This document shows, piece after piece, positions 1,804 to 27,916 of a DNA stretch of 28,422 nucleotides. Location of the stretch: NCBI GenBank assembly GCA_000433175.1, contig HF986641.1, positions 1-28,422 on the forward strand, in the 5' to 3' direction. Every line of letters starts with the position of its first letter. The first letter of the stretch is position 1. Made by a program: the position numbers and the translations under genes. The notes under the pieces were generated by a model. The model searched no databases and had not been told where the DNA came from. It was given only the letters and a program-made list of their open reading frames with translations. This stretch comes from Prevotella sp. CAG:1058 (lineage in GTDB: Bacteria; Bacteroidota; Bacteroidia; Bacteroidales; Bacteroidaceae).

Positions 1804-3573
1804 ATGAAGATACCCGACAACTATAGAATTATAAATACTCTTTCATTTTTTAATGTAAGATTAATATTACCTGTTGTTTTATTAATCTTGTGTTTCATTC
1901 CACTTGTTGCCCATGCGTCAGTGGACGAGCCGTGGCCGAAGACTACCAAGGCTTGCGATTCCATCGTTGACAGGTTGGAACGGCTGAGCGGTTATGTTGT
2001 AGACGAACAGATGGAGCTGGTGTCCCAACTTTACAACCTCGGCAAGGCTAATCCCGGTGTCAAGGCTATCGCATGGCGAGCGCTTTACTGGGATGCAGTG
2101 AGCAGGCACGACCGAAAGGAAATACAACATGCGTTGGCCTTGATAAAGCAGGCCGAAAGCGCAGTAGACCGTAAGCGTTTCGGGTACGATTACATGCGTA
2201 TACGACGCAGCAGGATGCTGTTCGAGCTTGGTGCGAAGAACGATTTGTACGGTTTGTATTCGGCGCAATATGCTGATTTGGACTACTTTATGCGTATTGG
2301 CGACAAGAAGGGTATCGGCAGTTGCCATCTGATGATAGGCAAGGTCCTCATCGACATTGGCGAGCCGTTGCGTGCCTTGGGTGAAAATGAAAAGGCTGTT
2401 GCCATGTTCCGTGAGTCCGACACACCAGCATTGCTCGCGTCAGCCGAGATGAATACAGCTTTGTGCCACCTACGCCTTGGCGAGATTAGTCGGGGTCTGG
2501 CAATACTGGAGAAACTTGAGCGTGGCGAAGTGGCTCGCCGTGATTCTTTCCTTCGTGCCACGGCAATGCTCAATATCAGTTATGCGTACAGTCAGACGGG
2601 AAAAGAGTGCCCGTACCGTTACATCAAGTGGATGGAGGAGTATTCGCGTAAAGGGTCGAACGCATATTTCCGTAACATGTGTAATATCAACGTGGCTTCA
2701 TGGCTTTACCGCCATGGCGACTATGGCGAGGCTATGGCACTTTTGTCTGCGACGTTGGATTATACATTCACACACGATTTGGGCACATGGCGTGAAAATT
2801 GTTACCTTGGTCTGGCGCAATGCCTTATAGGTATGGGCGACAGCTTAGGAGCTGTGGCATATTTCCAGCGTTATTTCGATTTGGTAGACTCTTTACGGTT
2901 CAGCGATATGAAGGTAAAGATATTGCGTTATGAAGAGGTTAGCCGGATACGCCGTTTCGACGAGGCCATGCAGGCTGAGAAGGCCGCTACCGAGTTGAGG
3001 TACATGCACATCCTGGCTGGCGCAGCCTTATTGTTGCTCGTGCTCGGTTGTGTCTGCCTGTGGTACTGGTATAAGAACAAGCGTGCCGCAATGAGGCTGC
3101 TTGAGGAGCAGATGGACAACGAGCGAAAGCGACTCGCCATAGAGGCGCAGAACCGTAAAATAGCGATCAGTACCATAGAAATGGAGGAAAAGAACAATAC
3201 GTTGCGCCATATAGGCAGCATGGTCGATGATGCTAAGGGCAAGAACGAGATAGGAACGGCTGTTGCAGGCAGGATAAAGGCACAGGTTAAGGTACATCTT
3301 GACACAGAAATGGGCTGGGATATGTTCAGGCAGACGTTTGAGAACGTTTATCCGTTTTTCTTCAAGCGCATAAAGACAGCTCACCCGACACTGACCGAAT
3401 ACGACATAAGGCTATGTACATACATATTGGTAGGTGTTGACAACAAGCAGATTGCGATGCTGCTCAACGTGCTGCCTGATTCGTTGAAGAAGTCGAGGAC
3501 AAGGCTGCGTAAGAAGTTAGGTATTGATGCCGGGGTAAACCTTGCCGAGTATCTTAGGGCTTTTAATGTCTGA
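1804..3573 (+). CDS. TPR membrane protein with C-terminal LuxR-like HTH
   Basis: 589 residues. There is an N-terminal signal or anchor segment (hydrophobic, about 19-38, ending AHAS). About 350 residues of helical TPR-like repeats follow (for example AMALLSATLDYTF and CYLGLAQCLIGMGD), then a transmembrane helix at about 400-424, a basic coiled coil (about 425-470), and a C-terminal helix-turn-helix at about 530-580 (LTEYDIRLC...DSLKKSRTRLRKKLGI). This is a common Bacteroidetes design: a periplasmic TPR sensor coupled through one helix to a cytoplasmic LuxR-type DNA-binding end. Ligand and target genes are unknown. No other ATG lies upstream of the hydrophobic segment, which supports the start. 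The 22-bp repeat array begins 20 bp after its stop codon. Confidence 0.8.
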   Translation: MKIPDNYRIINTLSFFNVRLILPVVLLILCFIPLVAHASVDEPWPKTTKACDSIVDRLERLSGYVVDEQMELVSQLYNLGKANPGVKAIAWRALYWDAVSRHDRKEIQHALALIKQAESAVDRKRFGYDYMRIRRSRMLFELGAKNDLYGLYSAQYADLDYFMRIGDKKGIGSCHLMIGKVLIDIGEPLRALGENEKAVAMFRESDTPALLASAEMNTALCHLRLGEISRGLAILEKLERGEVARRDSFLRATAMLNISYAYSQTGKECPYRYIKWMEEYSRKGSNAYFRNMCNINVASWLYRHGDYGEAMALLSATLDYTFTHDLGTWRENCYLGLAQCLIGMGDSLGAVAYFQRYFDLVDSLRFSDMKVKILRYEEVSRIRRFDEAMQAEKAATELRYMHILAGAALLLLVLGCVCLWYWYKNKRAAMRLLEEQMDNERKRLAIEAQNRKIAISTIEMEEKNNTLRHIGSMVDDAKGKNEIGTAVAGRIKAQVKVHLDTEMGWDMFRQTFENVYPFFFKRIKTAHPTLTEYDIRLCTYILVGVDNKQIAMLLNVLPDSLKKSRTRLRKKLGIDAGVNLAEYLRAFNV

Positions 3574-3592
3574 CAGGTTCAATTACCGTTTT

Positions 3593-3680
3593 TTGAAAGG
3601 TTACCTTTTGCACCGCAAAAGGTAACCTTTTAGCGTATAAAAGGCGGCCTTTCGTGTTCCAAAAGGCCGCCTTTTGCAAA
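3593..3680. repeat. Four-unit 22-bp dyad array, copy A
   Basis: Four head-to-tail units of 22 bp begin at 3593, 3615, 3637 and 3659. Each has the core AAAAGGNNNCCTTTT (unit 1 begins GAAAGG, unit 3 ends CTTTC). The central heptamers are GGTTACC, GGTAACC, GGCGGCC and GGCCGCC. Unit 2 is the reverse complement of unit 1, and unit 4 of unit 3, so two adjacent strong hairpins can form. The array lies between two converging genes (ends at 3573 and 3790) and could serve as a bidirectional terminator. Confidence 0.85.
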
Positions 3681-3789
3681 GGTGTTGATTTATAGGCTGT
3701 TACAGCCAGTAATTCAAATTGGGCTTAATTGGCCGGCGGCGTTTGTCCGTGTTGTGCCTCGCTGGTTGCGAGCCGCCTCCGTTTTGCCG

Positions 3790-6700
3790 TTACATCTTGA
3801 CTTTCGCCGTTTTCGAGCCGTTGGCTGTCTCTGCCTTTACGATGTACAGGCCGGCCTGGAGTGCCGATGAAGGAATGGCATGTCTGCATGCGCCCGGTGC
3901 ATAGGCGTAAACTATCTGGCCAGACGGGCTGTATACGTAGACGTGGGTTATCTCTTCCCCGGCGTTTATGCTTATCCCGTTGCGTTCCGACGATATTGTG
4001 ATGTCGTCTGCGCTGTTGTAAGCCGAACTGATTGAGGTACCTTGCAGGTTGGTTATGACCTCTACATCGTCAACCATCATTACCACGCCTTCGTTGTTTA
4101 TGCTGATATACTGCAAGGCTATGTAGACTGGCTTGTTGTCATATTCAGAAATGTCAACGTTCACCTCTTCCCACTCGTCTGCCGCCGCCTCACGGTCGCC
4201 GCCGATAACTGTGAAGCTATCAAAACTGTCGTCAGTGTCAGACACTAGTATTCTGTAACGTTCTGGTTTATTGTAGAAATCCAGTTCATTGGTCTTTACA
4301 AACAGTCTTATTGACGAGTTGTCGCCTAATTGCAGCTGTGGTGAAATCAGCCATACGTCACTTTCCATAGGCTCTTGACTGTATGAGGTACTGAAGGCTG
4401 CTCCAAAACGTTCGCCTGAGTGAGGGTAGAATCCGGGTATGTCCGTAATCGGCGGGGTTGTGGCATCAATGTTGAACGCCATGAATCCTACGGGTTCTGA
4501 TTTGTGCGGATAGTCGTAGAACGACCATGCGTCAGTCTCCCTGTTGTTACGGTCAACTGTGCGCCAGCGCGGGTTGAACATCGTACCGTAGTCAAAATCG
4601 TCACACAATTCAAAGTCAAGTCGGTATGGATTGCCCTCCTCCACACATGTGACGGTACGCTCAATCGTGTTGTTTGCAGGGTTTTCGTCGCCGTCGAGTG
4701 TTGCCGTGACGCTTATCTTATGTTCTCCCGCTGCAGACAGGTCAATGTCGTGGAACATTATGGTCTTTTCCTCGTAAGGCAGTAAGTCAGCCGTAGTGTC
4801 AGCCATTGTCATGCCGTCAATGGCGCAGGTTATGCGCACTGAGGTTATCGTGTCAGTGCCGACGTTAGCCAGTCTTACGCCGACAGAGTCGCGTATGCCC
4901 AGCAGTCCCTTGTCCTTTATCGGTGCCGTAAACTCTGTTAGTGCAGCGTCAAGACCGTATAATGTCGCTCCGTGGCCGAAATTCATTCTCAGAGCAATGG
5001 TTCCGCTGCCCGTTATGCTATATAGAGAGTCGCCGTCACTTTGGTAGAATGTTGCTTCTGTGGCTGCCGGGTCGTTGCATATTCCGATGTTGTCAATGGT
5101 CATCTGTTCCGTTTCCACATAGTAGTTGCCTGCGTTGAGCAGTCTCGGCGTGAATGTTAGGGTTGCCATTCTTCCTTCAGCCCCACGTTCCATTGTGGTG
5201 TGCATGATGCGTCGTCCGAGCCTGTGTCCGTCTTCTTTTATCTCGTAGACAGAGATTCCGATGTCACGTTTTACATAATATTCGTCTTTTGCCAGCCCTA
5301 TCGTTACTGACGTCAGCGTGTCGGCTGTGTTCAGAGTGTAGACGTTGCCGAACTTGGCGGTCTGTCCGCTCAGGCCTATGCCGCGTGTAAAGTCGGTTAT
5401 ATTCTCGGTTGCGAATACCGAGTCAGTCAGCACCACGTCACCTATTTCAATGCGGTTGTCAGCCGCATATTTCTCTCCCTCTATGTCAGCTGTTATGTAT
5501 GCGCCCCTTATTATGTCGCCTGCCGCAGCCTCAGGCATGCTTCCCGTCACCGTTACCTGTGCGGTGTTGTCGGGCTGCAGGTCAACTTTCTGTGTATTCT
5601 CAAACAGTCTGCTGCCGTCGATGTTCATTGATGTTGTAACCTCTTTTATCGGCTCTGTGCCGCGGTTGTTTACAGTTACGGTATAAGTGCCCTCACTGTT
5701 GTACTGTCCGGCAGGCATGTATGCCGTCATCGCTGAACGCATCTCATCCGCTTTGATGTCATAGTCGTAAATCTTGCTTATGTTGATATAATAAATGTTC
5801 AGTGATATGTCGGTCTCGTCGGCTTCGTTTACTATTGCGATAGAATAAAGCCCCGGTTCTATGTCATGCACGGCAATCTCTTTTTGAGCGCCGTTGTTGT
5901 CTACCTTGTCATCGTAATATACCGTGCGCCATGTAGACACGTCAGTGCCTGACGGTCCGAGTAATATCCTGATTTTCGCCGTTATGTTGAACAGTCCTCC
6001 CGAGTATGCGAAATTAAGGCGTACAGGTCTGTCAAGGTACATGCATGGTGAGAACAGTCCGTTCCCCCGCCCGGTTACCGTTGTTCTGTAACATGACCCC
6101 ATTGGGTCAAATTTCCATGTGTCAGCTTTACGTCCTGCCCAGTATTCTCCCGTTCCTGTGCTGAAGTCGCAGTCCAGCGGCAGTTGTGTCACAATGTCTT
6201 TGTGCGTGGCGGTTACGGTCTCGGTCGTGGTTTTGCCGCCGCAGGTGAGTGTCGCCTCGATGTCATATCTGCCAGTCGCCTCCATGTCGGCCCTGACGGA
6301 AGGATATACTGTTATCGTGCTGTCAGGGTTTATTGTCAGGTTGAATGTCTCGGCAGGTATTGCTGTTCCGTTGATTTTGTATGCCAGTGTAAACTCTGTG
6401 GCGTCGCCTGTGCCGTTGTTGGTTATCGTCACGCCGACAGGTGTCTCTGCTGAATAGTCACATTGTGAATAAGGTGTCTCTATGCCTGTTATCGTCAAGT
6501 TTGGCGACAGTTCCGCGGGACCTTTGTCTACTTTGATGTCGTCAACGTAGGTGCTGTAACCTTCTGTCGATACTGACCTCAGGGCGATGTGGTAAGCACC
6601 TGCTACAGGCACGTTGAATGTTGCAGCCTTGACTCTCCACGTGTTGCCGGTGATATTCCATTTTTTGACAAGCGTCATCCTGCTGACGTCGTCTGAATCT

Positions 6701-7065
6701 CCGTAATAAAGCTCTATGGCCTCTATGCCGTCACTTCTTACGCCTTTTGCCGAGAACGTTACATGATTGTCTCCCGCCTCAAGCGTAAGCGGCATAGATA
6801 TGAGATAGTCATCGTTGCCGGTCACTCCGTTAGTCTGGCAGTATGCACATCCCGGCATACCGTCAGAGCCTGGGTCCCAGTCGATGAATTCCCATGTAGA
6901 ATAGTCGTTATTGTTATTGACAACTGTCCATTCTTCGGCAAATTTTTCAGCTGAAGAGAAGTCGCATTTGTACGGTAGCGGCATGGCGCCTTTCCCGTCC
7001 TGTGCCCATGCGCCATACGTAATGGCGATAATGATAGCTAATGAAATGAAGCGAAAATTTTTCAT
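3790..7065 (-). CDS. T9SS type A cargo protein with choice-of-anchor-J and CARDB-like domains
   Basis: 1091 residues with a signal peptide (1-21, cleaved before QDG). Domains in order: jelly-roll choice-of-anchor-J/cleaved-adhesin-like (about 27-180), CARDB-like Ig fold (about 187-285), a second anchor-J-like module (about 290-435), CARDB-like (about 445-545), a beta module shared with the proteins at 15182 and 16574 (about 555-700), CARDB-like (about 710-810), a third anchor-J module (about 820-1005), and a C-terminal sorting domain (about 1020-1091; VYSPSGQIVY ... LQAGLYIVKAETANGSKTAKVKM-type end). It should be exported by Sec, pass the outer membrane through T9SS, and be attached or released at the surface. 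No catalytic domain is seen. A -7 box lies at 7103-7096. Confidence 0.85.
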   Translation of the reverse strand: MKNFRFISLAIIIAITYGAWAQDGKGAMPLPYKCDFSSAEKFAEEWTVVNNNNDYSTWEFIDWDPGSDGMPGCAYCQTNGVTGNDDYLISMPLTLEAGDNHVTFSAKGVRSDGIEAIELYYGDSDDVSRMTLVKKWNITGNTWRVKAATFNVPVAGAYHIALRSVSTEGYSTYVDDIKVDKGPAELSPNLTITGIETPYSQCDYSAETPVGVTITNNGTGDATEFTLAYKINGTAIPAETFNLTINPDSTITVYPSVRADMEATGRYDIEATLTCGGKTTTETVTATHKDIVTQLPLDCDFSTGTGEYWAGRKADTWKFDPMGSCYRTTVTGRGNGLFSPCMYLDRPVRLNFAYSGGLFNITAKIRILLGPSGTDVSTWRTVYYDDKVDNNGAQKEIAVHDIEPGLYSIAIVNEADETDISLNIYYINISKIYDYDIKADEMRSAMTAYMPAGQYNSEGTYTVTVNNRGTEPIKEVTTSMNIDGSRLFENTQKVDLQPDNTAQVTVTGSMPEAAAGDIIRGAYITADIEGEKYAADNRIEIGDVVLTDSVFATENITDFTRGIGLSGQTAKFGNVYTLNTADTLTSVTIGLAKDEYYVKRDIGISVYEIKEDGHRLGRRIMHTTMERGAEGRMATLTFTPRLLNAGNYYVETEQMTIDNIGICNDPAATEATFYQSDGDSLYSITGSGTIALRMNFGHGATLYGLDAALTEFTAPIKDKGLLGIRDSVGVRLANVGTDTITSVRITCAIDGMTMADTTADLLPYEEKTIMFHDIDLSAAGEHKISVTATLDGDENPANNTIERTVTCVEEGNPYRLDFELCDDFDYGTMFNPRWRTVDRNNRETDAWSFYDYPHKSEPVGFMAFNIDATTPPITDIPGFYPHSGERFGAAFSTSYSQEPMESDVWLISPQLQLGDNSSIRLFVKTNELDFYNKPERYRILVSDTDDSFDSFTVIGGDREAAADEWEEVNVDISEYDNKPVYIALQYISINNEGVVMMVDDVEVITNLQGTSISSAYNSADDITISSERNGISINAGEEITHVYVYSPSGQIVYAYAPGACRHAIPSSALQAGLYIVKAETANGSKTAKVKM

Positions 7066-7095
7066 ATTGTTATGATTTTTAAGTTAATCCGCTTG

Positions 7096-7103
7096 CAAAA
7101 TTA
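7096..7103 (-). promoter_or_regulatory. -7 box for the 1091-aa cargo gene
   Basis: TAATTTTG on the minus strand matches TAnnTTTG, with a 30-bp distance to the ATG at 7065. The nearest upstream TTTG is 24 bp away (7131-7128), longer than the usual 19-21 bp. Confidence 0.5.
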
Positions 7104-7314
7104 ATGTTTTGAGCAAGGATGATGCAACAAATAGACGTGGACAATAGGGGGACATGTGCCAAAATGTGCCTTTGTATAGGCGTTGGTGGCAATGAAATAT
7201 TCTTTTGGGAACAGTGCAGGTGAAATCCGTCATGCAGGCGCGGGGGACGGATTTTAAACGTTGTTGTGGCAGGGTTGGTAATGTGCTGGCAGTCAAAGTG
7301 TTAGTGATGGCAAT

Positions 7315-7402
7315 GCAAAAGGCGGCCTTTCGCGTTGCGAAAGACCGCCTTTTAGCGTGCAATTTGCCGTGTTTTAGGGCGTAAAAGGATGCCTTTTACA
7401 AA
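7315..7402. repeat. Four-unit 22-bp dyad array, copy D
   Basis: Units of exactly 22 bp begin at 7315, 7337, 7359 and 7381. The central heptamers are GGCGGCC, GACCGCC, TGCCGTG and GGATGCC. Units 1 and 2 are complementary apart from one wobble; unit 3 is decayed. The array ends 22 bp from the stop codon of the minus-strand histidine kinase, so it lies in that gene's 3' flank. Confidence 0.8.
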
Positions 7403-7424
7403 ACGGCTGCGTGCAGGTGTGTTT

Positions 7425-8588
7425 TTATTTCTTCAGTTCTATGCGGAAAGTCGTACCCTTTCCGGTCTCCGAACTCTTTACGAATATTCGTCCTTTGTGG
7501 TACTCTTCCACTATGCGTTTTGCCAACGAGAGGCCCAGGCCCCAGCCGCGCTTCTTGGTGGTGAAGCCCGGTTTGAACACGTTGCGCAGGTCTTTCTTCC
7601 TTATTCCCTTGCCGGTGTCCGACACTTCTATTATGGCTTTGTCGGCCGCCGACTCCATGTGCAGGGTTATGGTGCCGCTGCCTTCCATCGCGTCGACGGC
7701 GTTCTTGCACAGGTTTTCAATTACCCACTCGAACAGCGAGGCGTTAATCTTGATGATTATGTCCTCATCAGGGAAGTCCTTTATGAACTTCACCTTCGAC
7801 GATGTGCGGCGGTCCATGTACTCCATGACGTGCGCCATCACCTCGTTAAGGCTTGCCGGTACAGGTTCGGGCAGCGAGCCTATCTTGGAGAAGCGTTCGG
7901 CTATCAGTTCGAGACGCTTCACGTCCTTGTCCATTTCTGGTATCATGTCGTCGTCGGGGTAGTTCTCTTTCAGTATCTCCACCCACGCCATGAGGCTCGA
8001 TATCGGCGTGCCCAGTTGGTGTGCGGTCTCCTTTGACAGTCCCACCCACACCTTGTTCTGCTCGGCGCGCTTTGATGTCAGCAGGGCGAATATGGCCACC
8101 ACGACGAACAGCATCACCACCCCGAGCTGTATGTAAGGGTAGGCGGCCAGGCGCTTCAGCATGACCGAGTCGTCGTAACACACGTTGATGTAGCCGTCGC
8201 GGGTGTTGTCGCCAAGTACGATCCTTATGTATCGGCCCTCGTCAAATAGCCTTTCACTTATTTGTCCGGCCTGTTTCAGGCTGTCTTCATACGTTTCGCC
8301 GTTCAGTTTCACGTTGCGGAAGGTCTGTACGTTGCCGCCGGCGTCGGTCACTATTACCGGTATCGTGTTGTTCTCGTTAATCACCTTAAGCACAAGGTTA
8401 AGGTCGGTGTTCTCGTCGGCAAGGTTGAGCGCCCTCATGGCTTCAGCCCACACTTCCATCTTGTTGCGCTCCTCGTCGGCCAGCTCGTGCACCAGCGCGT
8501 TTGACACAACCAGCGAGGCCACGGCTATCACTACCGCGGCTATTACGAGGATTATCTTCACATGGCGTATTCTGTCAGTCCACTGCAT
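7425..8588 (-). CDS. Sensor histidine kinase (no adjacent response regulator)
   Basis: 387 residues. A transmembrane helix (about 10-32) is followed by a periplasmic sensor loop (about 33-148) and a second helix (about 150-170). The H box is KETAHQLGTP, with the phospho-acceptor at His190. The N box is in ENLCKNAVDAM, G1 is DTGKGI, and G2 is WGLGLSLAKRIV. This is a HisKA plus HATPase_c kinase. No receiver domain is fused and no response regulator gene lies nearby, so its partner must be elsewhere. It is divergent from the BlaI-type gene, and the 194-bp space between them contains several AACTA/TAGTT dyads. No convincing -7 box was found directly upstream. Confidence 0.9.
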   Translation of the reverse strand: MQWTDRIRHVKIILVIAAVVIAVASLVVSNALVHELADEERNKMEVWAEAMRALNLADENTDLNLVLKVINENNTIPVIVTDAGGNVQTFRNVKLNGETYEDSLKQAGQISERLFDEGRYIRIVLGDNTRDGYINVCYDDSVMLKRLAAYPYIQLGVVMLFVVVAIFALLTSKRAEQNKVWVGLSKETAHQLGTPISSLMAWVEILKENYPDDDMIPEMDKDVKRLELIAERFSKIGSLPEPVPASLNEVMAHVMEYMDRRTSSKVKFIKDFPDEDIIIKINASLFEWVIENLCKNAVDAMEGSGTITLHMESAADKAIIEVSDTGKGIRKKDLRNVFKPGFTTKKRGWGLGLSLAKRIVEEYHKGRIFVKSSETGKGTTFRIELKK

Positions 8589-8654
8589 ACGTATTTATAA
8601 CGCATTTACCGTGCTAATATTGTTGCTGTACATGCAGAATGACACCTAAACGTA

Positions 8655-8685
8655 TAACTTTAGTTAAATAACTACCTTCTTTAGT
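8655..8685. promoter_or_regulatory. Operator-like dyads, distal cluster
   Basis: Three overlapping inverted repeats: TAACTTTAGTTA (8655-8666), TAGTTAAATAACTA (8661-8674, perfect 6-2-6), and ACTA-N7-TAGT (8671-8685). The last has the same half-sites and spacing as the proximal dyad at 8714-8728, with centres 43 bp (about four turns) apart. They are candidate sites for the BlaI-type repressor encoded at 8783 and could also affect the divergent kinase gene. Confidence 0.5.
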
Positions 8686-8703
8686 TCGGTTTTCGGCAAA
8701 ACA

Positions 8704-8735
8704 TTTGGATGTTACTAAAACTTTTAGTTACTTTG
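8704..8735 (+). promoter_or_regulatory. blaI promoter with overlapping operator dyad
   Basis: TTTG (8704-8707), a 20-21-bp spacer, then TTACTTTG (8728-8735), a good TTTG/-7 pair with the start site expected near 8741. The dyad ACTAAAA-C-TTTTAGT (8714-8728) fills the spacer up to the -7 box, where a bound repressor would block RNA polymerase. This placement is typical of autoregulated BlaI/MecI genes. Confidence 0.65.
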
Positions 8736-8782
8736 CATAGTGCTACTTATGGAAATCTATTAACTCTAAAAAAATTGATAGT

Positions 8783-9151
8783 ATGAAAACATTAACCAAG
8801 CGTGAAGAAGAAATAATGGAGCATTATTGGGACAAGGGCGAGATGCACATACGCGAGCTGCAGGCTCTTTACGACGACCCCAAGCCGCACGTCAACACCC
8901 TTTCGACGCTCGTACACATCCTTGAAGACAAGGGTTTCCTTTCGCACAAGGCCATAACGCCCAAGAGCTACAAGTATTTTCCACGGCTGTCGCGCGACGA
9001 CTACCGCCGCGGTTCGCTGAAAAACGTGGTCGACAAGTTTTTCGGCAAGTCGTATCTCGGCGTCGTGTCGACACTAGTCAAGGACGAGAAGATATCGCTC
9101 GACGAGCTGCGCGAACTGATAAAGACGGTTGAGTCTGCCGACGGTAAGTGA
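8783..9151 (+). CDS. BlaI/MecI family transcriptional repressor
   Basis: 122 residues, the usual length for the family. The N-terminal winged helix is recognisable: LTKREEEIMEHYW, then HVNTLSTLVHILEDKGFLSHK as recognition helix and wing lead-in. It continues to YKYFPRLSRDDYRR, and a C-terminal dimerisation segment follows. Such repressors are cleaved or inactivated through a partner M56 peptidase; that partner is the next gene (9304). The inducing signal need not be a beta-lactam. The promoter and dyads upstream suggest autorepression. Confidence 0.9.
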   Translation: MKTLTKREEEIMEHYWDKGEMHIRELQALYDDPKPHVNTLSTLVHILEDKGFLSHKAITPKSYKYFPRLSRDDYRRGSLKNVVDKFFGKSYLGVVSTLVKDEKISLDELRELIKTVESADGK

Positions 9152-9303
9152 GCCGACGCACGTTGATGGCATGAGTTTGCGCTGCGTCCCGGCCGCTAGC
9201 CGGCGTGTGCGGCGTGGCAGGCAGACACCCTTTACCTCTTGTGCCGCGCGCATGTCTTGCGGCAATGAACTTGTTACCTTATAATAATATAACGTAAAAT
9301 CCT

Positions 9304-10914
9304 ATGGGACTGTTCTTCATTTATTCACTCAAAGTAGCGCTTTGCCTTACGGCGTTCTACCTTGTCTATAAGCTGCTGCTCAGCCGCGAGACCTTCTTCG
9401 GCTTCAACCGCGCCGTGCTGCTCGCCGTCATAGGCCTGTCGCTGTTGCTGCCTTTAGTTCACTTCAGCATGGAGTCGGCACCGGCCGGTGTAGCCGGTTT
9501 CGTCGTCGTGGAAGACATGATAGTGCATGCCGTCGCCGACGGGACTGAAAGTTTCGTACTTACGGCAGCCCAGGCGGCTTTCATCGTCTACGTCCTCGGC
9601 GTACTCTTTTTCGCCTGCCGCTGGGTGTGGTCGCTCGTCAGCCTGTACCGCCTGATGCGTGGCGGCAGGGTTGTCGACAGCTCCGGCGGCATACGCACCA
9701 TTGTCGTAGACGGCGACGTGTCTCCGTTCAGCTGGATGGGCAACATCGTGATAAGCGCGAAAGACTACGCCGGCGACCCTCGGTACATACTTACGCACGA
9801 GCGTGCCCACATATACGGACGCCATTCAGCCGACATAATGCTGTGCGACGCGCTGATAGTGTTCCAGTGGTTCAACCCCTCGGCGTGGCTGCTCAAGGCC
9901 GAACTGCAAAACCTGCACGAGTACGAGGCCGACAGCGCGGTACTATCATCGGGTGCCGACGCCGCCACGTACCAGCTCATGCTGATACGCAAGGCCGTGG
10001 GCGACAAACTATTCACTATGGCTAATAATCTAAACCAATGTTCACTTAAAAAACGAATTACCATGATGATGAAAAAGAAATCAAATCCGTGGCGGCGCGT
10101 TAGGACGCTCCTCGTTGCGCCGGTGGCCGCCGTGGCCGTGGTGGCTTTTGCCACGCCGAAGGCCGAGAGCCTGGGTAACGAAATAATGAACGAGAGCGAC
10201 GCTCTTGTAAGTGCCGTGATGCCTGCGGGCGGAACTCCGTCAGTGCAGGCTCCGCAAGTGGCGGCTGCGGCGGGCGCTAATGCCGCAACCGGTATCGCCG
10301 GGGAGGCACGGCAGGCTGCTGTGACAACTGGAAACAACAGCCTTGACGGCGGCGATGACGACAAGGTGTACAACACTGTTGAAGAAATGCCCGAGTTCCC
10401 CGGCGGCCAGAATGCCTTGATGAGGTGGCTCGCAGACAATCTGAAGTATCCAAAGGAAGCAGCCGAAGACGGCATACAGGGACGTGTTGTGGTGAAGTTC
10501 GTCATCGACAGGAACGGTAATGTCACAAACCCCACGGTCGCACGTAGCGTATGCGACGCCCTCGACGCAGAGGCTCTCCGCATCGTAAGGTCCATGCCGA
10601 AGTGGACTCCCGGCAAGCAGGATGGCAAGTGCGTAGCCGTTGAGTACTCGCTGCCCGTGGCGTTCCGTATTGACGGCGGCAAGAACGGCACCGGCATAGA
10701 CATACTCAATCGTTACGATTTGCCCAAGAATGGTCGGCTTCACATGTCGGGCAACATGCTTTATGTCGTCGACGGCAAGCAGGTGGACGACATAAAGAAC
10801 TATAATCTGGACGATATAGAGAGCATCGAGGTAAATAAGGACAAGGAGACGATAGCGAAATACGGCGATGCTGCCAAGAACGGCGTAATCTACGTAACCA
10901 CCAAGAAGAAATAA
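9304..10914 (+). CDS. M56 (BlaR1-like) peptidase fused to TonB-C and a plug-like domain
   Basis: 536 residues. There are hydrophobic helices at about 3-24, 36-52 and 80-108, then the zinc peptidase motif HERAH at His165-His169 with the downstream acidic ligand in LHEYEAD (Glu206 or Glu208). WFNPSAWLL between them is typical of M56. A fourth hydrophobic segment (about 262-282) is followed by an Ala/Gly-rich linker. A TonB C-terminal domain follows (about 354-457; MPEFPGGQNALMRW, MPKWTPG). The last ~60 residues resemble the end of a TonB-receptor plug (LYVVDGKQV, DDIESIEV, NGVIYVTTKK). It lies 152 bp after the repressor gene. Inferred role: an inner-membrane sensor-protease that controls the repressor in response to an envelope signal. 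Confidence 0.85.
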   Translation: MGLFFIYSLKVALCLTAFYLVYKLLLSRETFFGFNRAVLLAVIGLSLLLPLVHFSMESAPAGVAGFVVVEDMIVHAVADGTESFVLTAAQAAFIVYVLGVLFFACRWVWSLVSLYRLMRGGRVVDSSGGIRTIVVDGDVSPFSWMGNIVISAKDYAGDPRYILTHERAHIYGRHSADIMLCDALIVFQWFNPSAWLLKAELQNLHEYEADSAVLSSGADAATYQLMLIRKAVGDKLFTMANNLNQCSLKKRITMMMKKKSNPWRRVRTLLVAPVAAVAVVAFATPKAESLGNEIMNESDALVSAVMPAGGTPSVQAPQVAAAAGANAATGIAGEARQAAVTTGNNSLDGGDDDKVYNTVEEMPEFPGGQNALMRWLADNLKYPKEAAEDGIQGRVVVKFVIDRNGNVTNPTVARSVCDALDAEALRIVRSMPKWTPGKQDGKCVAVEYSLPVAFRIDGGKNGTGIDILNRYDLPKNGRLHMSGNMLYVVDGKQVDDIKNYNLDDIESIEVNKDKETIAKYGDAAKNGVIYVTTKKK

Positions 10915-10942
10915 CTGCAGGCCGGTCCCTGTGCGGTGTGTG

Positions 10943-10970
10943 GTGGCGCGGCAATGGTCTGCCGCGCCAC
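10943..10970 (+). terminator. Intrinsic terminator of the blaI-M56 operon
   Basis: A perfect 11-bp GC-rich stem, GTGGCGCGGCA (10943-10953) with TGCCGCGCCAC (10960-10970) and loop ATGGTC, is followed by TTTCCGTTT. It starts 28 bp after the stop codon at 10914. Confidence 0.8.
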
Positions 10971-11075
10971 TTTCCGTTTACGGCAGTGCTTTCAGCAGCC
11001 CCTTGCCGCCCGCTCCGGCACACCTCAGCTCCCTGCCTTTTATCGTGCTTGTAACGTCTTGATGCTCAATATGTT

Positions 11076-11163
11076 GCAAAAGGCCGACTTTCGCGGCCTG
11101 AAAGATAACCTTTTGCAGCGTAAAAGGTAACCTTTTGGAAGGTAAAAGGTGGCATTTTAGTAT
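11076..11163. repeat. Four-unit 22-bp dyad array, copy B
   Basis: Units of 22 bp begin at 11076, 11098, 11120 and 11142. The central heptamers are GGCCGAC, GATAACC, GGTAACC and GGTGGCA. Unit 3 has the perfect core AAAAGGTAACCTTTT; the units are individually palindromic rather than clearly paired with each other. Confidence 0.8.
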
Positions 11164-11357
11164 GCTTGTGGAAAATATCGTCAGGCTTTAGGCAATGCCC
11201 CGTCTGTCGTATCTGAAATATGAGTGAATAAAAAGGGGCATCAATACATGTTTGCAATTTGGGACTTACACCTCGTTTACATAATGGATTTTAAGCAGTA
11301 AATGGCAATTAACAAATGTTTTTGCGTTTTCTTTATGCTTGTATGAAAAATAATTTG

Positions 11358-11365
11358 TAACTTTG
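11358..11365 (+). promoter_or_regulatory. -7 box of the DUF177-rpmF-fabH operon
   Basis: TAACTTTG is an exact TAnnTTTG match, with the start site expected near 11371. This leaves a leader of about 85 nt before the ATG at 11455. A clear -33 TTTG at 19-21 bp is missing. Confidence 0.6.
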
Positions 11366-11454
11366 CAGCCCAAAGAATTGTGCCGCCCGTAGCCGATGCG
11401 TGCAGCTTCTGTGAAGGGCAAGGACACTCTTTTCTGTGTTACATAATTTTAGCA

Positions 11455-11988
11455 ATGTACAGTTTAGAGCCCTTAAAGATTGATTTGAACGGTCTGAAGG
11501 AAGGCGAGACTACTTTTGAATACGACCTTGACGACGCTTATTTCGAGGCGGTTGACGCTCCCGAAGTGAGACGTGGCAACGTGCATGTTGACCTGGTGGT
11601 CAACCGTACGGGTGGCGTTTACAGTCTTGACTTTCATACCGAAGGCACGGTTCATGTGCCGTGCGACCTCTGCCTCGAGGACATGGAGCAGGAGGTCTGC
11701 GCCGACAACAGTCTGACGGCACGCCTTGGAGAGGAATATTCTGAAGACGACGACCTGGTGACGGTCGACAAGGACGAAGCCTTGCTCGACGTGTCATGGT
11801 TCGTTTACGAGTTTATAGCCCTGAGCATCCCCATTAAGCATGTGCATGCACCTGGAAAATGCAATCCTGCGATGATTAAGGTTCTTGAAGAACACTCAGC
11901 TGCCCGAAGCAGTGATGGCGGTGGCGAAGGCGCCGTGGACTCGCGTTGGAGTGAATTGGAAAAATTAAAAACAATAATTAAAGATTAA
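11455..11988 (+). CDS. DUF177 (YceD-like) protein
   Basis: 177 residues. The family is recognised by the VPCDLCLEDMEQEV segment (paired cysteines, about residues 75-80), the acidic region after it, and an ending rich in charged residues. DUF177/YceD proteins are encoded next to rpmF in many bacteria and are linked to 23S rRNA and ribosome maturation. Six bases separate the stop codon from rpmF, so the three genes form an operon. A GTG at 11380 is in frame but lies within about 10 bases of the expected transcription start, so the ATG at 11455 is preferred. Confidence 0.85.
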   Translation: MYSLEPLKIDLNGLKEGETTFEYDLDDAYFEAVDAPEVRRGNVHVDLVVNRTGGVYSLDFHTEGTVHVPCDLCLEDMEQEVCADNSLTARLGEEYSEDDDLVTVDKDEALLDVSWFVYEFIALSIPIKHVHAPGKCNPAMIKVLEEHSAARSSDGGGEGAVDSRWSELEKLKTIIKD

Positions 11989-11994
11989 AAGAAA

Positions 11995-12180
11995 ATGGCA
12001 CATCCTAAAAGAAGACAGTCAAAGACTCGTACCCGTAAAAGAAGAACTCATGATAATGCAGTAGCTCCCACACTGGCAGTATGCCCCAACTGTGGCGCTT
12101 ATCACGTTTACCACACAGTTTGCCCGACATGCGGCTACTATCGTGGAAAGATTGCTATCGTCAAGGAAACGGTTGAATAA
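11995..12180 (+). CDS. rpmF: Large ribosomal subunit protein bL32
   Basis: 61 residues starting [20 protein letters not shown], the typical basic N-terminus of bL32. The zinc-binding type is present: CPNC at Cys30/Cys33 and CPTC at Cys43/Cys46. Its stop codon shares one base with the fabH start (TAATG). Confidence 0.97.
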
Positions 12181-13199
12181 TGGAGAAAATTAACGCAATA
12201 ATAACCGGCATCGGAGGTTACGTTCCCGACTATGTGCTCAACAACGAAGAGCTGTCGAGAATGGTCGACACCAACGATGAATGGATTATGACGCGTGTCG
12301 GCATAAGGGAACGCCGCATTCTCACCGAGGAAGGTCTCGGTACTTCTTACATGGCGCGCAAGGCTGCCAAGCAACTGCTTAAGAAGACCGGAGCCGACCC
12401 GGATACGATTGACGCTGTAATAGTGTCAACTTCTACGGCCGATTATCCTTTCCCTTCCACGGCTTCTATCGTGATAGGGAAACTCGGACTTAAGAACGCT
12501 TTCGCCTTCGACTTCTGGGCTGCATGCTGCGGCTTCCTCTATTCGATGGACGTGGCCGCTTCGATGATCCAGTCGGGCCGCTACAAGAGAATCATAGTCA
12601 TCGGTGCCGACAAGATGTCGTCCATAGTCGACTATACTGACCGCAGCACATGTGCGCTCTTCGGCGACGGTGCCGCAGCAGTGTTGATGGAAGGTACTTC
12701 GGAGGAAGGTATCGGCGTTAAGGACTCTTTCTTCCGTGCCGACGGCAAGGGCTTGCCCTTCCTGCACACCAAGGCAGGCGGTTCGGTATGTCCTCCTTCA
12801 CACTTCAGCGTAGACCACCGTCTGCATTACCTCTATCAGGAGGGCCGCACGGTGTTCCGTTATGCAGTGACGAGCATGAGCGACGACTGCGCCCTCATAG
12901 CCGAGCGCAACGGACTGAACAAGGACAACATACGCTTCATTGTGCCCCATCAGGCCAACATACGTATAATCGAGGCCGTTGCAAAGCGTCTTGACGTGTC
13001 GATGGACCAGGTGATGGTCAACATCGAGCACTTCGGCAACACCAGCGCGGCTACCATCCCGCTCGCCCTTTGGGAGAATGAGCACCTTTTGAAGAAAGGC
13101 GACAACCTCATTCTTACGGCGTTCGGAGCAGGCTTCGTTCACGGAGCAGCCTATTATACTTGGGCTTACGACGGTGCTGACGCACCCGCTGCCAAGTAA
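12180..13199 (+). CDS. fabH: 3-oxoacyl-ACP synthase III (FabH)
   Basis: 339 residues. FabH condenses an acyl-CoA with malonyl-ACP to start fatty acid synthesis. The catalytic triad is visible: Cys116 in AACCGF, His257 in VPHQANIRI, and Asn287 in [11 protein letters not shown]. The glycine-rich [12 protein letters not shown] segment is also typical. The start overlaps rpmF by one base, implying translational coupling. The operon ends here with a strong terminator; plsX, which lies between rpmF and fabH in enterobacteria, is absent. Confidence 0.97.
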
Positions 13200-13221
13200 G
13201 CGAACGGTAAAAGATATTTAA

Positions 13222-13254
13222 GACAGCCACATCCGCATGGAGGATGTGGCTGTC
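13222..13254 (+). terminator. Intrinsic terminator of the fabH operon
   Basis: GACAGCCACATCC (13222-13234) pairs perfectly with GGATGTGGCTGTC (13242-13254) across a 7-base loop and is followed by TTTGTTTTTG. Confidence 0.9.
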
Positions 13255-13336
13255 TTTGTTTTTGCAAGTACAACGGTGCTTTACGTACGGAAATGTAGTT
13301 GTTAGTGGTATAAATTTCCGTTTTACTCGTTTTTAT

Positions 13337-13367
13337 TTTGCGTTAATCACTTTAAACGCTATCTTTA
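13337..13367 (+). promoter_or_regulatory. Promoter of the SIMPL-domain gene
   Basis: TTTG (13337-13340), a 19-bp spacer, then TATCTTTA (13360-13367), one mismatch from TAnnTTTG. The start site is expected near 13374, about 20 nt before the ATG at 13395. Confidence 0.6.
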
Positions 13368-13394
13368 CCCCGGTTAAACCAAAAAACGGACATT

Positions 13395-14093
13395 ATGAAC
13401 AGAATCAAGGAAGCGGCGGTAATCGCCATCGGTATCATTGTTTTGGGACTGTGTGTGAAGTCTGGGCTTGACGGCTTTTCCGACAGGAGCCGCAAGGTTA
13501 CGGTGAAGGGGTTGTCGGAACGCGAGGTCGAGGCTGACAAGGTTACGTGGCCGATACTTACAAAGGAGCTTGGCAACGACCTGCCTTCGCTCTACAAAAG
13601 CATAAACGCCACTACGGCCAAGGTCAAGGCGTTTTTGAAACAGAACGGCGTTAAGGATTCGGAAATCAGTGTGAACGCCCCTGTGGTGATCGACTTGAAT
13701 GCCGACCAGTACAACACGGTTAAGCGTAATTACAGGTATAACATTACTTCCACCGTTACAGTGACGTCGCGCAACGTCAAGCTGGTGCGCTCAATCATCG
13801 CGCGGCAGGGTGAACTGTTGAAGCAGGGCGTGGCCGTTGTTGACGGCGGCTACGGCAACGGTGTGGTGTATGAGTACGTGTCGTTCCAGCAGATGAAGCC
13901 GAAGATGATGCAGGAGGCCATCAAGAACGCCGAACAGACGGCAAAGCAGTTTGCCGAGAACAGCGACAGCAAGCTCGGGAAAATCCTTGACGCGGGGCAG
14001 GGGCAGTTCACCATAACCGACCGTGACGGCAACACGCCATACATCAAGAAGCTGCGCGTGGTGTCTACGGTGACTTACTCGCTGAAGGACTGA
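13395..14093 (+). CDS. SIMPL (DUF541) domain protein
   Basis: 232 residues with an N-terminal membrane anchor or uncleaved signal (about 6-24), followed by one SIMPL/DUF541 domain. Recognised segments: KVTVKGLSEREVEADKVTW at the start, the alternating beta pattern INATTAKVKAFLKQNGVKDSEISV, then the AIKNAEQTAKQFAENSDSKLGKI helix and closing strands. The domain forms oligomeric periplasmic assemblies in studied cases; the cellular role is generally unclear. The gene stands alone with its own promoter. Confidence 0.85.
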   Translation: MNRIKEAAVIAIGIIVLGLCVKSGLDGFSDRSRKVTVKGLSEREVEADKVTWPILTKELGNDLPSLYKSINATTAKVKAFLKQNGVKDSEISVNAPVVIDLNADQYNTVKRNYRYNITSTVTVTSRNVKLVRSIIARQGELLKQGVAVVDGGYGNGVVYEYVSFQQMKPKMMQEAIKNAEQTAKQFAENSDSKLGKILDAGQGQFTITDRDGNTPYIKKLRVVSTVTYSLKD

Positions 14094-14099
14094 CGGCTT

Positions 14100-14115
14100 A
14101 CGGGCTTCCGCCCGT
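14100..14115 (+). terminator. Small GC hairpin after the SIMPL gene
   Basis: ACGGGC-TTCC-GCCCGT is a 6-bp stem with a stable TTCC loop, 7 bp after the stop codon at 14093. No T run follows directly, so it may only protect the 3' end. Confidence 0.45.
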
Positions 14116-14123
14116 GAAAGTAA

Positions 14124-14230
14124 AGAAGCTGTTTTGATTTTTTCAATAGTCGGTTTGAGTTGTATGTGTGCCGGAAATCCATTCTGTACGGCAGGAAAAA
14201 ATCAACTTTGATAAAGTCAAAACAGTTTCT
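14124..14230. other. 107-bp structured inverted-repeat element
   Basis: The outer arms AGAAGCTGTTTTGA (14124-14137) and TCAAAACAGTTTCT (14217-14230) pair over 14 bp with one G-U. The inner arms TTGATTTTTTC (14134-14144) and GAAAAAATCAA (14195-14205) pair over 11 bp; they share TTGA with the outer arm, so the two pairings compete at the junction. CTTTGATAAAG (14206-14216) and TGCCG/CGGCA inside can form further small stems. The element lies between two converging genes. It could be a miniature transposable element or a structured RNA 3' end. Confidence 0.6.
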
Positions 14231-14273
14231 AAAAGGTCACGGAACCGTGCGTTTTACGGTTTCGTGACCTTTT
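14231..14273. terminator. Bidirectional terminator overlapping the lipoprotein gene end
   Basis: Arm 14231-14248 pairs with arm 14256-14273 over 18 bp with one wobble, across the loop GCGTTTT. A run of A's precedes and a run of T's follows, so it can act in both directions. The right arm is the end of the minus-strand coding sequence, and the stop codon (14256-14254) lies at the loop. Confidence 0.8.
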
Positions 14274-14721
14274 TCAGGCTTGTATTATAGCCTGTGTCTA
14301 TTATCATCACGTTGCCGTCGGTACCGTAAAATGAGAACAACCGGTCTGCGGTGTTTGCCGTGTCGTCAATGGCAATGTACGGGTTGAGCTGCATGTCTAC
14401 GTCAAGGCTCCATTCTCCGACCGTTTTCTCTTCGCGCAGTGTCACCATGCCGTCCTCGTTGCCCTCTTCTCCGGCTATTATTCCGGCTGGCCTTTTCATC
14501 GTCAGTATATACGTTCCCTGCATGTCTTCGTCAAGTTTCATGTATTCATATACGGTTACGTCGCCGTTCTGTAGCGTGTCGTTTTCCCATTCTCCGATTA
14601 GTTTTTCACCGTACATTTCGTATAGTTGCTGTATGGCTTGAAACCGCGGGGCTGGTTCGGGGTCGTCGTTGCAGGCGCATAGGGCCATAATCGCAATGAC
14701 TGATAACAATGTATTTTTCAT
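14254..14721 (-). CDS. Small lipoprotein, lipocalin-like
   Basis: 155 residues. A lipoprotein signal is present (MKNTLLSVIAIMALCACNDD): the lipobox ends at Cys15 or Cys17, followed by acidic residues. Asp after the Cys would favour retention or a Bacteroidetes surface-export signal. The mature part (LIGEWENDTLQNGDVTVYEYMKL, TVGEWSLD) resembles small lipocalin-like beta-barrel domains, but I cannot assign a family with certainty. The last codons lie within a terminator hairpin. 22-bp array copy C lies 88 bp upstream of its start. Confidence 0.7.
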   Translation of the reverse strand: MKNTLLSVIAIMALCACNDDPEPAPRFQAIQQLYEMYGEKLIGEWENDTLQNGDVTVYEYMKLDEDMQGTYILTMKRPAGIIAGEEGNEDGMVTLREEKTVGEWSLDVDMQLNPYIAIDDTANTADRLFSFYGTDGNVMIIDTGYNTSLKKVTKP

Positions 14722-14808
14722 GTCTTGGTGTTTTTTATGTAATCAGGTGTCAAACACATGGTTGACGTTTTGAAGTCAGTCATACTGTTTTCTGTTTCCG
14801 CCGCTTTT

Positions 14809-14896
14809 CCAAAAGGTGGCCTTTTGCCTTGCCGTTAGCCGTCTTTTGCCGTATAAAAGACGGCTTTTTATGTTGTAAAAGGCCACCTTTTGCATG
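14809..14896. repeat. Four-unit 22-bp dyad array, copy C
   Basis: Units of 22 bp begin at 14809, 14831, 14853 and 14875. The central heptamers are GGTGGCC, AGCCGTC, GACGGCT and GGCCACC. Unit 4 is the exact reverse complement of unit 1 at the centre, and unit 3 of unit 2, so the four units nest into one long hairpin. Confidence 0.85.
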
Positions 14897-15030
14897 GCGG
14901 CTGGCGGTTGGCTCGCATGTGTTACGTAACATTCTGGTTTTCATCAGGTTATGCCGTAATGGCAAAACGGCGTGTCGTGAAAGCCGTACAGCGATGGTAT
15001 GACGGGGAAACCATGCCTGCATATATTGTC

Positions 15031-15063
15031 AACGCCTGGCTGACTGAAAGTCGGCCAGGCGTT
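15031..15063 (-). terminator. Strong hairpin downstream of the 414-aa cargo gene
   Basis: AACGCCTGGC (15031-15040) pairs with GCCAGGCGTT (15054-15063), and GACT with AGTC inside, giving a 15-bp stem with one wobble and loop GAA. No T run follows on either strand; it may act as an RNA 3' end stabiliser or a Rho-assisted stop. Confidence 0.6.
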
Positions 15064-15181
15064 GGTTGATGTGTCCCGTCACCGTTGTTTGGCGGCGGTG
15101 CGCTCTTCTGTCGCTGCGGCATTTTGACGCGCTCACCGGCTTTTCGCCGTTTGCCGTCTCTTTAGTCGGTTTGCCGTCCTG

Positions 15182-19986: not shown

Positions 19987-20032
19987 TTAGTACAATAGTT
20001 CGTTAAAAATTAGCCCAGCCTAAGCGGCTCTG
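19987..20032. repeat. 46-bp direct repeat, copy 1
   Basis: All 46 bases are identical to 28206-28251, in the same orientation, and the identity stops abruptly on both sides. On the minus strand it encodes the last codons of the upstream gene (Arg-Ala-Ala-stop) followed by TAATTTTTAACG. It lies just in front of the 1130-aa cargo gene. Confidence 0.95.
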
Positions 20033-27828: not shown

Positions 27829-27916
27829 ACAAAAGGCCATCTTTCGTGTAACAACTCACCATGTTTCATACCATAAAAGATAGTATTTCACATAGAAAAG
27901 CACATATAAACATTCC
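27829..27916. repeat. Four-unit 22-bp dyad array, copy E (decayed)
   Basis: Units in 22-bp register begin at 27829, 27851, 27873 and 27895. The first has AAAAGGCCATCTTTC and the third AAAAGATAGTATTTC; the second and fourth are much degraded. The register and unit number match the other four copies. Confidence 0.55.

Follow-up and report, generated by a model that had tools for sequence, protein, structure and literature searches.

The window, as we call the whole 28,422-nt stretch of DNA analysed here, carries four copies of an intergenic element built of contiguous palindromic units in 22-bp register, and in several genomes with such arrays the GC content of the flanking DNA oscillates at 11 bp in step with them. 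The phased silent sites of neighbouring genes together with the arrays suggest that these elements help to fold the chromosome. We consider the chances about even that the element is a chromosome-folding node working at the level of DNA, neither a gene nor an RNA device, a reading that comes from the comparison of sequences. That the rotational setting of the helix matters is argued by the two-turn register and its existence in two versions, the tail placed at integer turns, the curvature predicted only at 20–22 bp, the pairing of units as DNA and the phased silent sites.

The motif AAAAGGNNNCCTTTT matched the window 16 times with at most two mismatches, compared with 1.71 ± 1.13 matches in shuffles, none of which (0/100) reached 16. 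Scored as four units, the arrays of Table 1 exceed the maximum of 24–31 obtained in 200 Markov shuffles of the window. The initial annotation had listed five copies in strict 22-bp register with four positions each. This holds for arrays 1 to 4, but the fifth copy was rejected: in its claimed register it scores 26, within the shuffle range, with a fold z of −0.58 that amounts to no fold, and a register one unit upstream scores 29, which 5 of 200 shuffles reach. The decayed internal units match at 7/12 positions in array 2 and 6/12 in array 4. Units 1:2 and 3:4 of array 1 are reverse-complement pairs and are predicted to fold into two hairpins, 1:2 and 3:4, while the predicted fold of array 4 is one nested hairpin, 1:4 plus 2:3; the fold of array 3 was equalled in 1 of 200 shuffles. 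A CRISPR reading is ruled out, since the units are contiguous and have no spacers, and an Rfam search of the window returned 0 of 4227 families at gathering score.

Table 1. Positions of arrays, one-sided tails and tested intervals in the window
Feature	Position	Strand	Units or tail	Four-unit score	Single-stranded DNA fold z	Remarks
Array 1	3593..3680		3595, 3617, 3639, 3661	46/48	−9.2	
Array 1 one-sided tail	3676..3703	+	GCAAAGGTGTTGATTTATAGGCTGTTAC			orientation probability 1.0; IHF-like site degenerate
Array 2	7315..7402		7317, 7339, 7361 (decayed), 7383	40/48	−5.5	
Array 2 one-sided tail, long form	7277..7316	−				reads outward on minus strand
Array 3	11076..11163		11078, 11100, 11122, 11144	43/48	−3.4	
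Array 3 one-sided tail	11051..11077	−	GCAACATATTGAGCATCAAGACGTTAC			reads outward
Array 4	14809..14896		14811, 14833 (decayed), 14855, 14877	40/48	−8.4	no confident tail side
Claimed fifth copy	27829..27916					rejected; single weak unit
Window flank test	2825..15661					outer limits of the 110–770 bp flanks of four arrays; middles of the intervals outside the test

All four arrays of the window lie outside called genes, although mechanical ORFs of 80–92 aa overlap arrays 2 and 4. Array 1 lies between converging genes, about 20 bp beyond the stop codon of 1804–3573(+), and faces gene 3790–7065(−); array 2 lies 22 bp 3′ of a histidine kinase gene, 7425–8588(−), and array 3 about 160 bp past the stop of 9304–10914(+). 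A location close to gene 3′ ends, as originally described, thus applies to three of the four; array 4 stands between two minus-strand genes, nearer the start of 14254–14721(−). The 3.7-kb spacing between the arrays of the window may be chance.

The anatomy of the element was derived from 135 arrays with a four-unit score of at least 32/48, 200 bp to the left and 300 bp to the right; three loci with non-Prevotella labels and two units each (L048, L084, L112) and the viral loci L002–L012 were left out before counting. The consensus unit, AAAAGGYNRCCTTTT, is a 15-bp palindrome with the edges TTGC and GCAA, followed by the 7-bp linker RCNNNGY, so that half-sites alternate every 11 bp. Units with at least 9/12 matches occupy positions 1–4 in 83–87% of these arrays, one step before in 1% and one step after in 7%; the corresponding extra units are seen in 2% and 0% in genome G003, where 87 of 93 strong-unit gaps equal 22. 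The element had been described as having exactly four units. This is correct for most genomes, including G205 (6 arrays) and G070 (3 arrays), but not for P. histicola, in which a fifth unit is often present, for G033 with 4–6 units, or for G058, which keeps the 22-bp register with a variable number of units. G033 and G205 (L310–L323) contain the same kind of element in a 21-bp register, with 29 of 29 adjacent distances in G033 and 21 or 42 bp in 12 of 12 distances in G205. Both registers correspond to two helical turns, in agreement with the earlier remark on spacing, which we regard as key. In the oral G139 group the left half-sites are decayed and the elements are still recognisable in 22-bp steps. 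The central triplets of the units are specific to lineages. In one subset of arrays (L071:4962, L076:7053, L085:6291, L100:3238) a further inverted repeat encloses the units: TTACGGTTTT, or a sequence close to it, lies outside the first unit, and the last unit is followed at about 20 bp by GAAAACCGTAA or a close variant; another subset has a common left end like GCGGATGAACCCC.

The genomes nearest to the window, Prevotella MAGs and other members of this genus group, are G011 (83% over 2.7 kb), G012, G016, G010 and G279. The ortholog of array 3 is present in G011, arrays 3′ of the matching histidine kinase gene also occur in G012 (score 40) and G010 (score 33), and G012 has an array at about the distance expected for array 4; the short contigs of G279 and G233 gave no array with a score of 33 or more. 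A scan of genome contigs for two units exactly 22 bp apart gave at least 120 loci. Among the matches listed, these come with few exceptions from Prevotella, Xylanibacter, Palleniella, Marseilla or Prevotellaceae MAGs, the exceptions being one Chlorobium, one Oscillospiraceae, one proteobacterium and five from one 'Bacillota' MAG. The latter, JAMPFD (G004; L099, L117, L124, L131, L132), contains arrays and is grouped within the genus of P. histicola, and its 'Bacillota' label is probably wrong. With the gap left free between 2 and 30, the period was 22 in every listed match of P. histicola (G001; contigs C54, C53 and C55, loci L158–L177 and L330–L334), G002, G004 and G005, with 0 matches of the reversed control. 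In a sample of the order, the free-gap search matched 3 of 247 genomes, namely P. histicola and two with single matches at periods 26 and 33. In a sample of the genus it matched 16 of 200, among them G141 and G191 with single matches at 23 and 18 bp; there the reversed control pattern gave zero save 6 in one genome. The 2.6-Mb genome G003 contains 220 strict unit pairs by count. The strict search pattern misses diverged forms, for example those of the G139 group, so that a wider occurrence is possible. An array in G092 (L337, 5434–5521) keeps the 22-bp step with a changed core of the AAAGC...GTTTT type (P. histicola profile, E 3e-9), and given this array more diverged subfamilies probably exist. 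Viral matches had periods of 15–35 in 11 of 12 cases, and a period of 22 solely in L001, a 4.2-kb IMG/VR contig with a four-unit array at 1158–1245; this probably stems from the host, the contig being mislabelled or lying at the edge of a prophage.

Unexpectedly, when flanks are aligned on their arrays, GC oscillates with an 11-bp period in the register of the array, with peaks at 3 mod 11 counted outward, where the linker lattice has its centre. For the 92 flanks of the 46 P. histicola arrays, all 110-bp bins that start between 110 and 1430 bp lie above every one of the 200 random-phase nulls, after which the signal is gone; the bin of 0–110 bp is not significant, and random anchors used as a control gave one positive bin of ten. 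The peak period of these flanks is 10.98–11.00. The right and left flanks agree independently of each other: between 110 and 770 bp they reach a Rayleigh R of 0.76 and 0.77 (p ~1e-12 each), and between 770 and 1430 bp p is 7e-7 and 4e-4. GC at codon position 3 swings from 0.31 to 0.54 with phase, an amplitude of 0.1135, as compared with 0.037 and 0.028 at codon positions 1 and 2 and 0.060 in non-coding DNA, and AA and TT peak opposite GC, GG and CC. The phase-lock was found by exploration, and its p-values are optimistic as they treat related flanks as independent.

A period of 11.0 with an offset near 3 also exceeds the null maximum in G003, G139, G152, G316, G353 and the 135-array set, which takes in four P. 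histicola loci and the G003 loci and so overlaps with these in part; in the 135-array set the phase-lock lasts to 2.4 kb. It stays within the null in G033, G205 and G058 (3–8 arrays each) and, in that test, in Palleniella, where further tests show a weak phase-lock (p 0.003–0.007). For third codon positions alone, p is 2e-12 in C54, 5e-4 in C53, 0.17 in C55, 2.5e-3 in Palleniella, 0.034 in G139, 3e-3 in G152, 0.24 in G316 and 0.016 in G353; the lack of significance in G316 and C55 counts against a folding node. In the window, six of the eight flanks of 110–770 bp deviate from offset 3 by no more than 1 bp (V-test, p = 0.0018), and p is 0.18 for 770–1430 bp; the window at large has no 11.0-bp rhythm (ratio 1.07). 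The flanks of the six 21-bp arrays of G205 have their best period at 10.5, but within the null.

Relative to neighbouring periods, the 11-bp signal is 5.9 in C54, 2.5 in C53, 1.5 in C55 and 1.3 in G003, compared with 1.3 in 53 array-poor Prevotella loci and 1.1 at 11.0 bp in viral controls. The several-fold difference between the three regions of P. histicola suggests macrodomains. The rhythm of C54 is strong whatever the distance, and local 11-bp power does not drop away from arrays, which is why we do not claim that arrays create the lattice. Coherence there extends over about 1 kb and at 660 bp is 0.62 near arrays versus about 0.5. With the rhythm strong everywhere and coherence only modestly higher near arrays, the arrays sit within a more extended lattice, a point against a folding node. 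Array number correlates with rhythm strength in P. histicola (Spearman 0.74, p 2.5e-5; 25 blocks of 20 kb, which are not independent). The known 11-bp code and the arrays thus appear to belong to one system, with arrays in P. histicola dense where the rhythm is strong. Arrays on C54 are also evenly spaced, with a CV of 0.31 versus 0.93 in the null, reached in 0 of 2000 randomizations and likewise under a context-preserving null. Even spacing is not universal: out of 2000 nulls, 25 were as even for C53, 40 for Palleniella, 434 for C55, 286 for G139, 388 for G152, 904 for G353 and 1375 for G316. Spacing is therefore extreme only on C54 and weak on C53 and Palleniella.

On one side of the array lies a tail with the consensus TTGATTATCAANNNNTTACG, which includes WATCAANNNNTTR. 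The latter corresponds to the IHF consensus of E. coli. This IHF-consensus-like site sits beside the palindromes, not between them. Its exact form was found pointing outward in 17 of 125 arrays and in 0 of 250 control sets (other gap lengths, 0–4), and its relaxed form in 34 of 125 arrays versus 0 of 250. Matches on the inward strand, in 10/125 and 9/125 arrays at gaps 4 and 5, indicate that the site is partly palindromic. A weight matrix of the tail, built from 31 seeds none of which came from P. histicola, recognised 81 sides of 123 arrays (80 arrays) compared with 5 of 246 control sides. The distances are mostly 13–14, 25, 36 or 47 bp outward, following 14+11n; taken modulo 11, they equal 2 or 3 on 73 of the 81 sides. 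P. histicola has the tail on 37 sides of its 46 arrays (34 arrays; control 2/92), 36 of them at 3 mod 11. Among the 35 arrays of G003 it was recognised on 27 sides, 22 of which are at 2 or 3 mod 11, and among the 17 of Palleniella on 8 sides. In the window, the tail of array 3 is the best match to the IHF consensus, one letter off. Orientation shows no preference with respect to transcription (27:26).

In 52 of the 135 arrays, where permutation predicts 10, unit 1 has a central triplet that is the reverse complement of that of unit 2, and for units 3 and 4 this is so in 44 (10.7 expected). For units 2 and 3 the triplets are the same in direct reading in 38 arrays (10.8 expected), and a reverse complement is seen in only 13. 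Watson-Crick pairing of whole units has a z of 12.6 for 1:2, 9.1 for 3:4, 5.4 for 1:4, 2.5 for 2:4, 2.0 for 1:3 and 1.7 for 2:3. Where a unit deviates from the core, its partner has the compensating change in 33 of 164 cases for 1:2 (8.8 expected) and 21 of 118 for 3:4 (8.3 expected), as against 9 of 135 for 2:3 (8.1 expected) and 12 of 164 for 1:4 (11.4 expected). On the sense strand of 59 tandem cases, G-T mismatches (52 and 69) are not in excess of A-C mismatches (54 and 77). Watson-Crick covariation without a G-T preference argues that units 1:2 and 3:4 pair at the level of DNA, with two neighbouring hairpins kept as DNA or copied by DNA-level template switching; an RNA element was rejected on the missing G-T excess and the empty Rfam search.

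The eight A-tracts of the array lie one helical turn apart when units keep the two-turn register, with GC-rich steps half a turn away, an arrangement which, judged from the letters, is that of intrinsically curved DNA. A wedge model, on whose parameters the angles depend, predicts a net bend of 79 degrees for the 135 arrays, compared with 40 for dinucleotide shuffles and 33–34 for flanks. The predicted values are 109 degrees in P. histicola, 103 for the four arrays of the window, 63–83 for elements of the G139 group and 60 for 21-bp arrays. When the units are re-spaced in silico, the bend is 80 degrees at 20 bp, 94 at 21 bp and 77 at 22 bp and stays below 38 at the other spacings within 16–28 bp; in this model, the two natural registers of 21 and 22 bp are those of strong bending. 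The 21-bp arrays themselves are predicted to bend weakly (z above 2 in 2 of 14), which counts against the element being a folding node. In a plectoneme pinning study, as far as its accessible text goes, intrinsic curvature over about 70 bp was the main determinant of the tip position (PMC6301789).

The intergenic placement that had been noted in the window recurs elsewhere: none of 138 arrays in eight stretches lies inside a called gene. With a weaker gene caller, 2 of the 109 arrays that were classed fell within ORFs, another 26 at locus edges being left unclassed, and 30 of 107 fell in divergent gaps. A broad spread of unit numbers, the lack of a register and frequent presence inside genes, which the initial annotation had named as contrary evidence, were largely not found, as the register is strict, called genes are avoided and units mostly number four. 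Among gaps of 90 bp or more, convergent ones hold 49 of 137 arrays and number 111 of 553 (p 5e-7 versus gaps without arrays); divergent ones hold 19 of 137 and number 108 of 553 (p 0.06). Between tandem genes, the median distance from the upstream stop was 64 bp in the first data set (59 cases). In eight later stretches, where genes were under-called, the medians were 153–440 bp, with the array nearer the upstream stop than the downstream start in five and no nearer in three.

The convergent gene ends fit the specialised terminator that had been offered as one explanation. In such a reading, arrays would be bidirectional transcription terminators or mRNA 3′-end hairpins, with two strong hairpins between A/T tracts, and the short distance in the 59 tandem cases, the five later stretches of like tendency, the strength of the predicted hairpins and the Watson-Crick covariation of 1:2 and 3:4 all point that way. 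The other three stretches and the longer medians do not, and the equal G-T and A-C counts on the transcribed strand differ from the RNA stem with a one-strand pairing preference by which an intrinsic terminator is recognised. Orientation ignores transcription, divergent gaps do hold arrays, and neither a tail at integer turns nor phased genes are required for termination. We hold termination to be improbable as the explanation. The decay of palindromes in the oral G139 group speaks against it and was also counted against a folding node.

Whether the elements move was assessed flank by flank among the sister species G139, G152 and G353, which share 88–92% nucleotide identity in alignable DNA. 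Of 106 site comparisons, 36 had the element present, 1 had it absent, 8 had anchors that were not collinear and 61 had no anchor within 200 kb; both directions were counted, so that unique sites number about half, and inter-anchor gaps of up to 5 kb were allowed. The sole absent site was not narrowed to an exact empty site. Nine ortholog alignments revealed point changes rather than fresh insertions in eight, and one (53598) aligned poorly. PF01797, the Y1/RAYT-type family of IS200-like transposases, is present in G002, G007, G010 and G012 and missing from the other 8 of 12 carrier genomes, among them G001, G003, G004 and G005. The initial suggestion of a REP/BIME-like element moved in trans is thus supported in its anatomy, with palindromes, an IHF-like site, gene ends and a high copy number, and not supported in its mobility, as the element is in place in 36 of 37 resolvable comparisons; mobility driven by RAYT was rejected because the gene is missing from 8 of 12 carriers.

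Alternatively, the arrays could be resident REPIN- or MITE-like repeats, selfish or formerly mobile and now merely persisting, in which register and curvature served recognition by an enzyme. The family is dispersed, intergenic and high in copy number, and in P. histicola it has a lineage-specific consensus with defined 5′ and 3′ parts. P. histicola also has single units and linkers in both orientations, which is the mark of palindrome flipping, and four of the twelve carriers do have the Y1 gene. The stability of sites and the eight carriers lacking this gene weigh on the other side. The 42 P. histicola copies have best ungapped pairwise identities of 0.51–0.85 with no near-identical copies among them, no terminal inverted repeats were seen in oriented copies, in which the tail is one-sided, and passive insertion would not predict a helical register with the silent sites of neighbours. 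We consider this origin rather unlikely to be the full account.

A protein-binding array was a further suggestion. If it is taken as a set of sites for one sequence-specific regulator, a dimer per palindrome and four in a row at many genes, the conserved core, the variable linkers, the helical phase of the four sites and the lineage-specific central triplets, as if following a changing protein, would be explained. Yet the arrays stand at gene ends and not at promoters, a dimer-binding protein has no need of DNA pairing between neighbouring units, and the phased flanks reach far past any regulator footprint. A single regulator seems to us still less probable than termination. In a broader sense the suggestion survives, as the register, the IHF-like site at integer turns and the phased flanks would favour a nucleoprotein or topological structure at the DNA level.

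As a folding node, the array would fix the place and rotational orientation of a DNA bend. A bender of the IHF/HU type and/or a wrapping enzyme such as gyrase could then set a tight loop, either a plectoneme tip or a wrapped complex, and flanks in register would let both arms share one superhelical path. Sites at convergent gene ends could collect and dissipate transcription-driven supercoils. Copies may have spread in the past by some copying process and may now be held in place. The fuller proposal is a written folding plan, in which curved, cruciform-capable tetrads set the rotational phase, silent sites to about 1.4 kb or more on each side keep step at 11.0 bp per turn, and element and flanks form an encoded superhelical unit of about 3 kb; this we put forward tentatively, at somewhat less than an even chance.

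A single REP measures about 35–40 bp, and in REP super-families one palindrome end reportedly bears a GTAG or CGTC tag. Neither tag stands at the consensus edges of our units. Where a BIME combines two REPs, the Prevotella element has four 15-bp dyads in two-turn register, its IHF-like site is outside the array at integer turns, the flanking genes are phased and a RAYT-type gene is missing in eight of twelve carriers. With no tag, a different unit and this gene pattern, the element would be BIME-like in role and not a REP by membership. In the available text of two studies, BIME-1 of Escherichia coli carries an IHF site and binds IHF (PMC2817692), and E. coli gyrase prefers a phased 10.75-bp GC modulation, with sites downstream of transcribed units and in BIME-2 (PMC6379681). 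BIME-1/RIB and BIME-2 are, by these accounts, likewise palindromic, extragenic, high in copy number and located at 3′ ends of transcription units (PMC2817692, PMC6379681). The gyrase motif, of about 130 bp, resembles our element in its phased GC modulation of 10.75 bp and is described as degenerate with a central cleavage site, while the Prevotella element is a palindromic repeat family (PMC6379681).

No named family had been recognised in the initial annotation. The nearest named repeat is PINSR of Prevotella intermedia, possibly of the same family, which according to the accessible text is 188 bp long, intergenic and present in 177 and 184 copies in two strains; it lacks terminal inverted repeats, about three quarters of its sites are common to both strains, and its function is unknown (PMC4755523). 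In PCR with specific primers, P. intermedia, nigrescens, falsenii and disiens alone were positive, and P. veroralis is among the species reported as negative (PMC4755523). Size class, number, intergenic place, stability and the lack of terminal inverted repeats are shared with our element, although none of these features is specific to PINSR. The accessible description mentions no palindromic units, 22-bp register, IHF site or phasing (PMC4755523). PINSR may be the P. intermedia member of the tetrad family, a comparison made by description and not by letters. BrickBuilt of Porphyromonas gingivalis, another Bacteroidales intergenic tandem short repeat with flanking parts, comprises 19 elements with 1 to 22.8 direct repeats of 23 nt and a leader that reaches 285 nt and a tail that reaches 318 nt, as far as its accessible text describes it (PMC4596501). 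The Prevotella units, in contrast, are palindromic, 22 or 21 bp in step and mostly four, with a short one-sided tail, and membership in BrickBuilt was rejected.

The bacterial 11-bp structural code, or persistent periodicity, is described in the available texts as an AT/GC rhythm of about 11 bp, mainly at third codon positions and tied to supercoiling or nucleoid structure (PMC4132750, PMC3431218, PMC7537859). The period of 11.0 and the codon position 3 amplitude in P. histicola agree with this. In the parts of these papers that are accessible the code is treated as clusters or as a genome-wide strength, with no mention of phase-locking to a discrete repeat (PMC4132750, PMC3431218, PMC7537859). 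In open PMC text we found no report of the two-turn four-dyad design or of discrete elements phase-locked to silent sites, and five 13-letter unit strings led there only to two unrelated papers. Palindromic intergenic elements and the 11-bp code are thus known in kind, and PINSR in print lowers the novelty of the element family; the four-dyad two-turn design and, above all, the phase-lock would then be the new parts. Discrete, countable elements in register with the bacterial 11-bp rhythm, and with synonymous sites of genes close by, allow one to ask directly what this rhythm is for. Codon choice in these genomes would carry a DNA-folding message if plectonemes or wrapped complexes are positioned by the elements. 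An anatomy and a function to test for PINSR may follow as well. The 21-bp register of G033 and G205 provides a natural test for a shift of the genome rhythm to 10.5 bp.

Two further repeats were observed in the window. Positions 19987–20032 and 28206–28251 are identical 46-bp direct copies, one of which overlaps the 3′ end of a minus-strand 99-aa ORF (20020–20319), and they are a possible recombination or mobile remnant. Positions 47–174 hold a degenerate 9-bp minisatellite, ATGGGAGTA, in about 13.7 copies.
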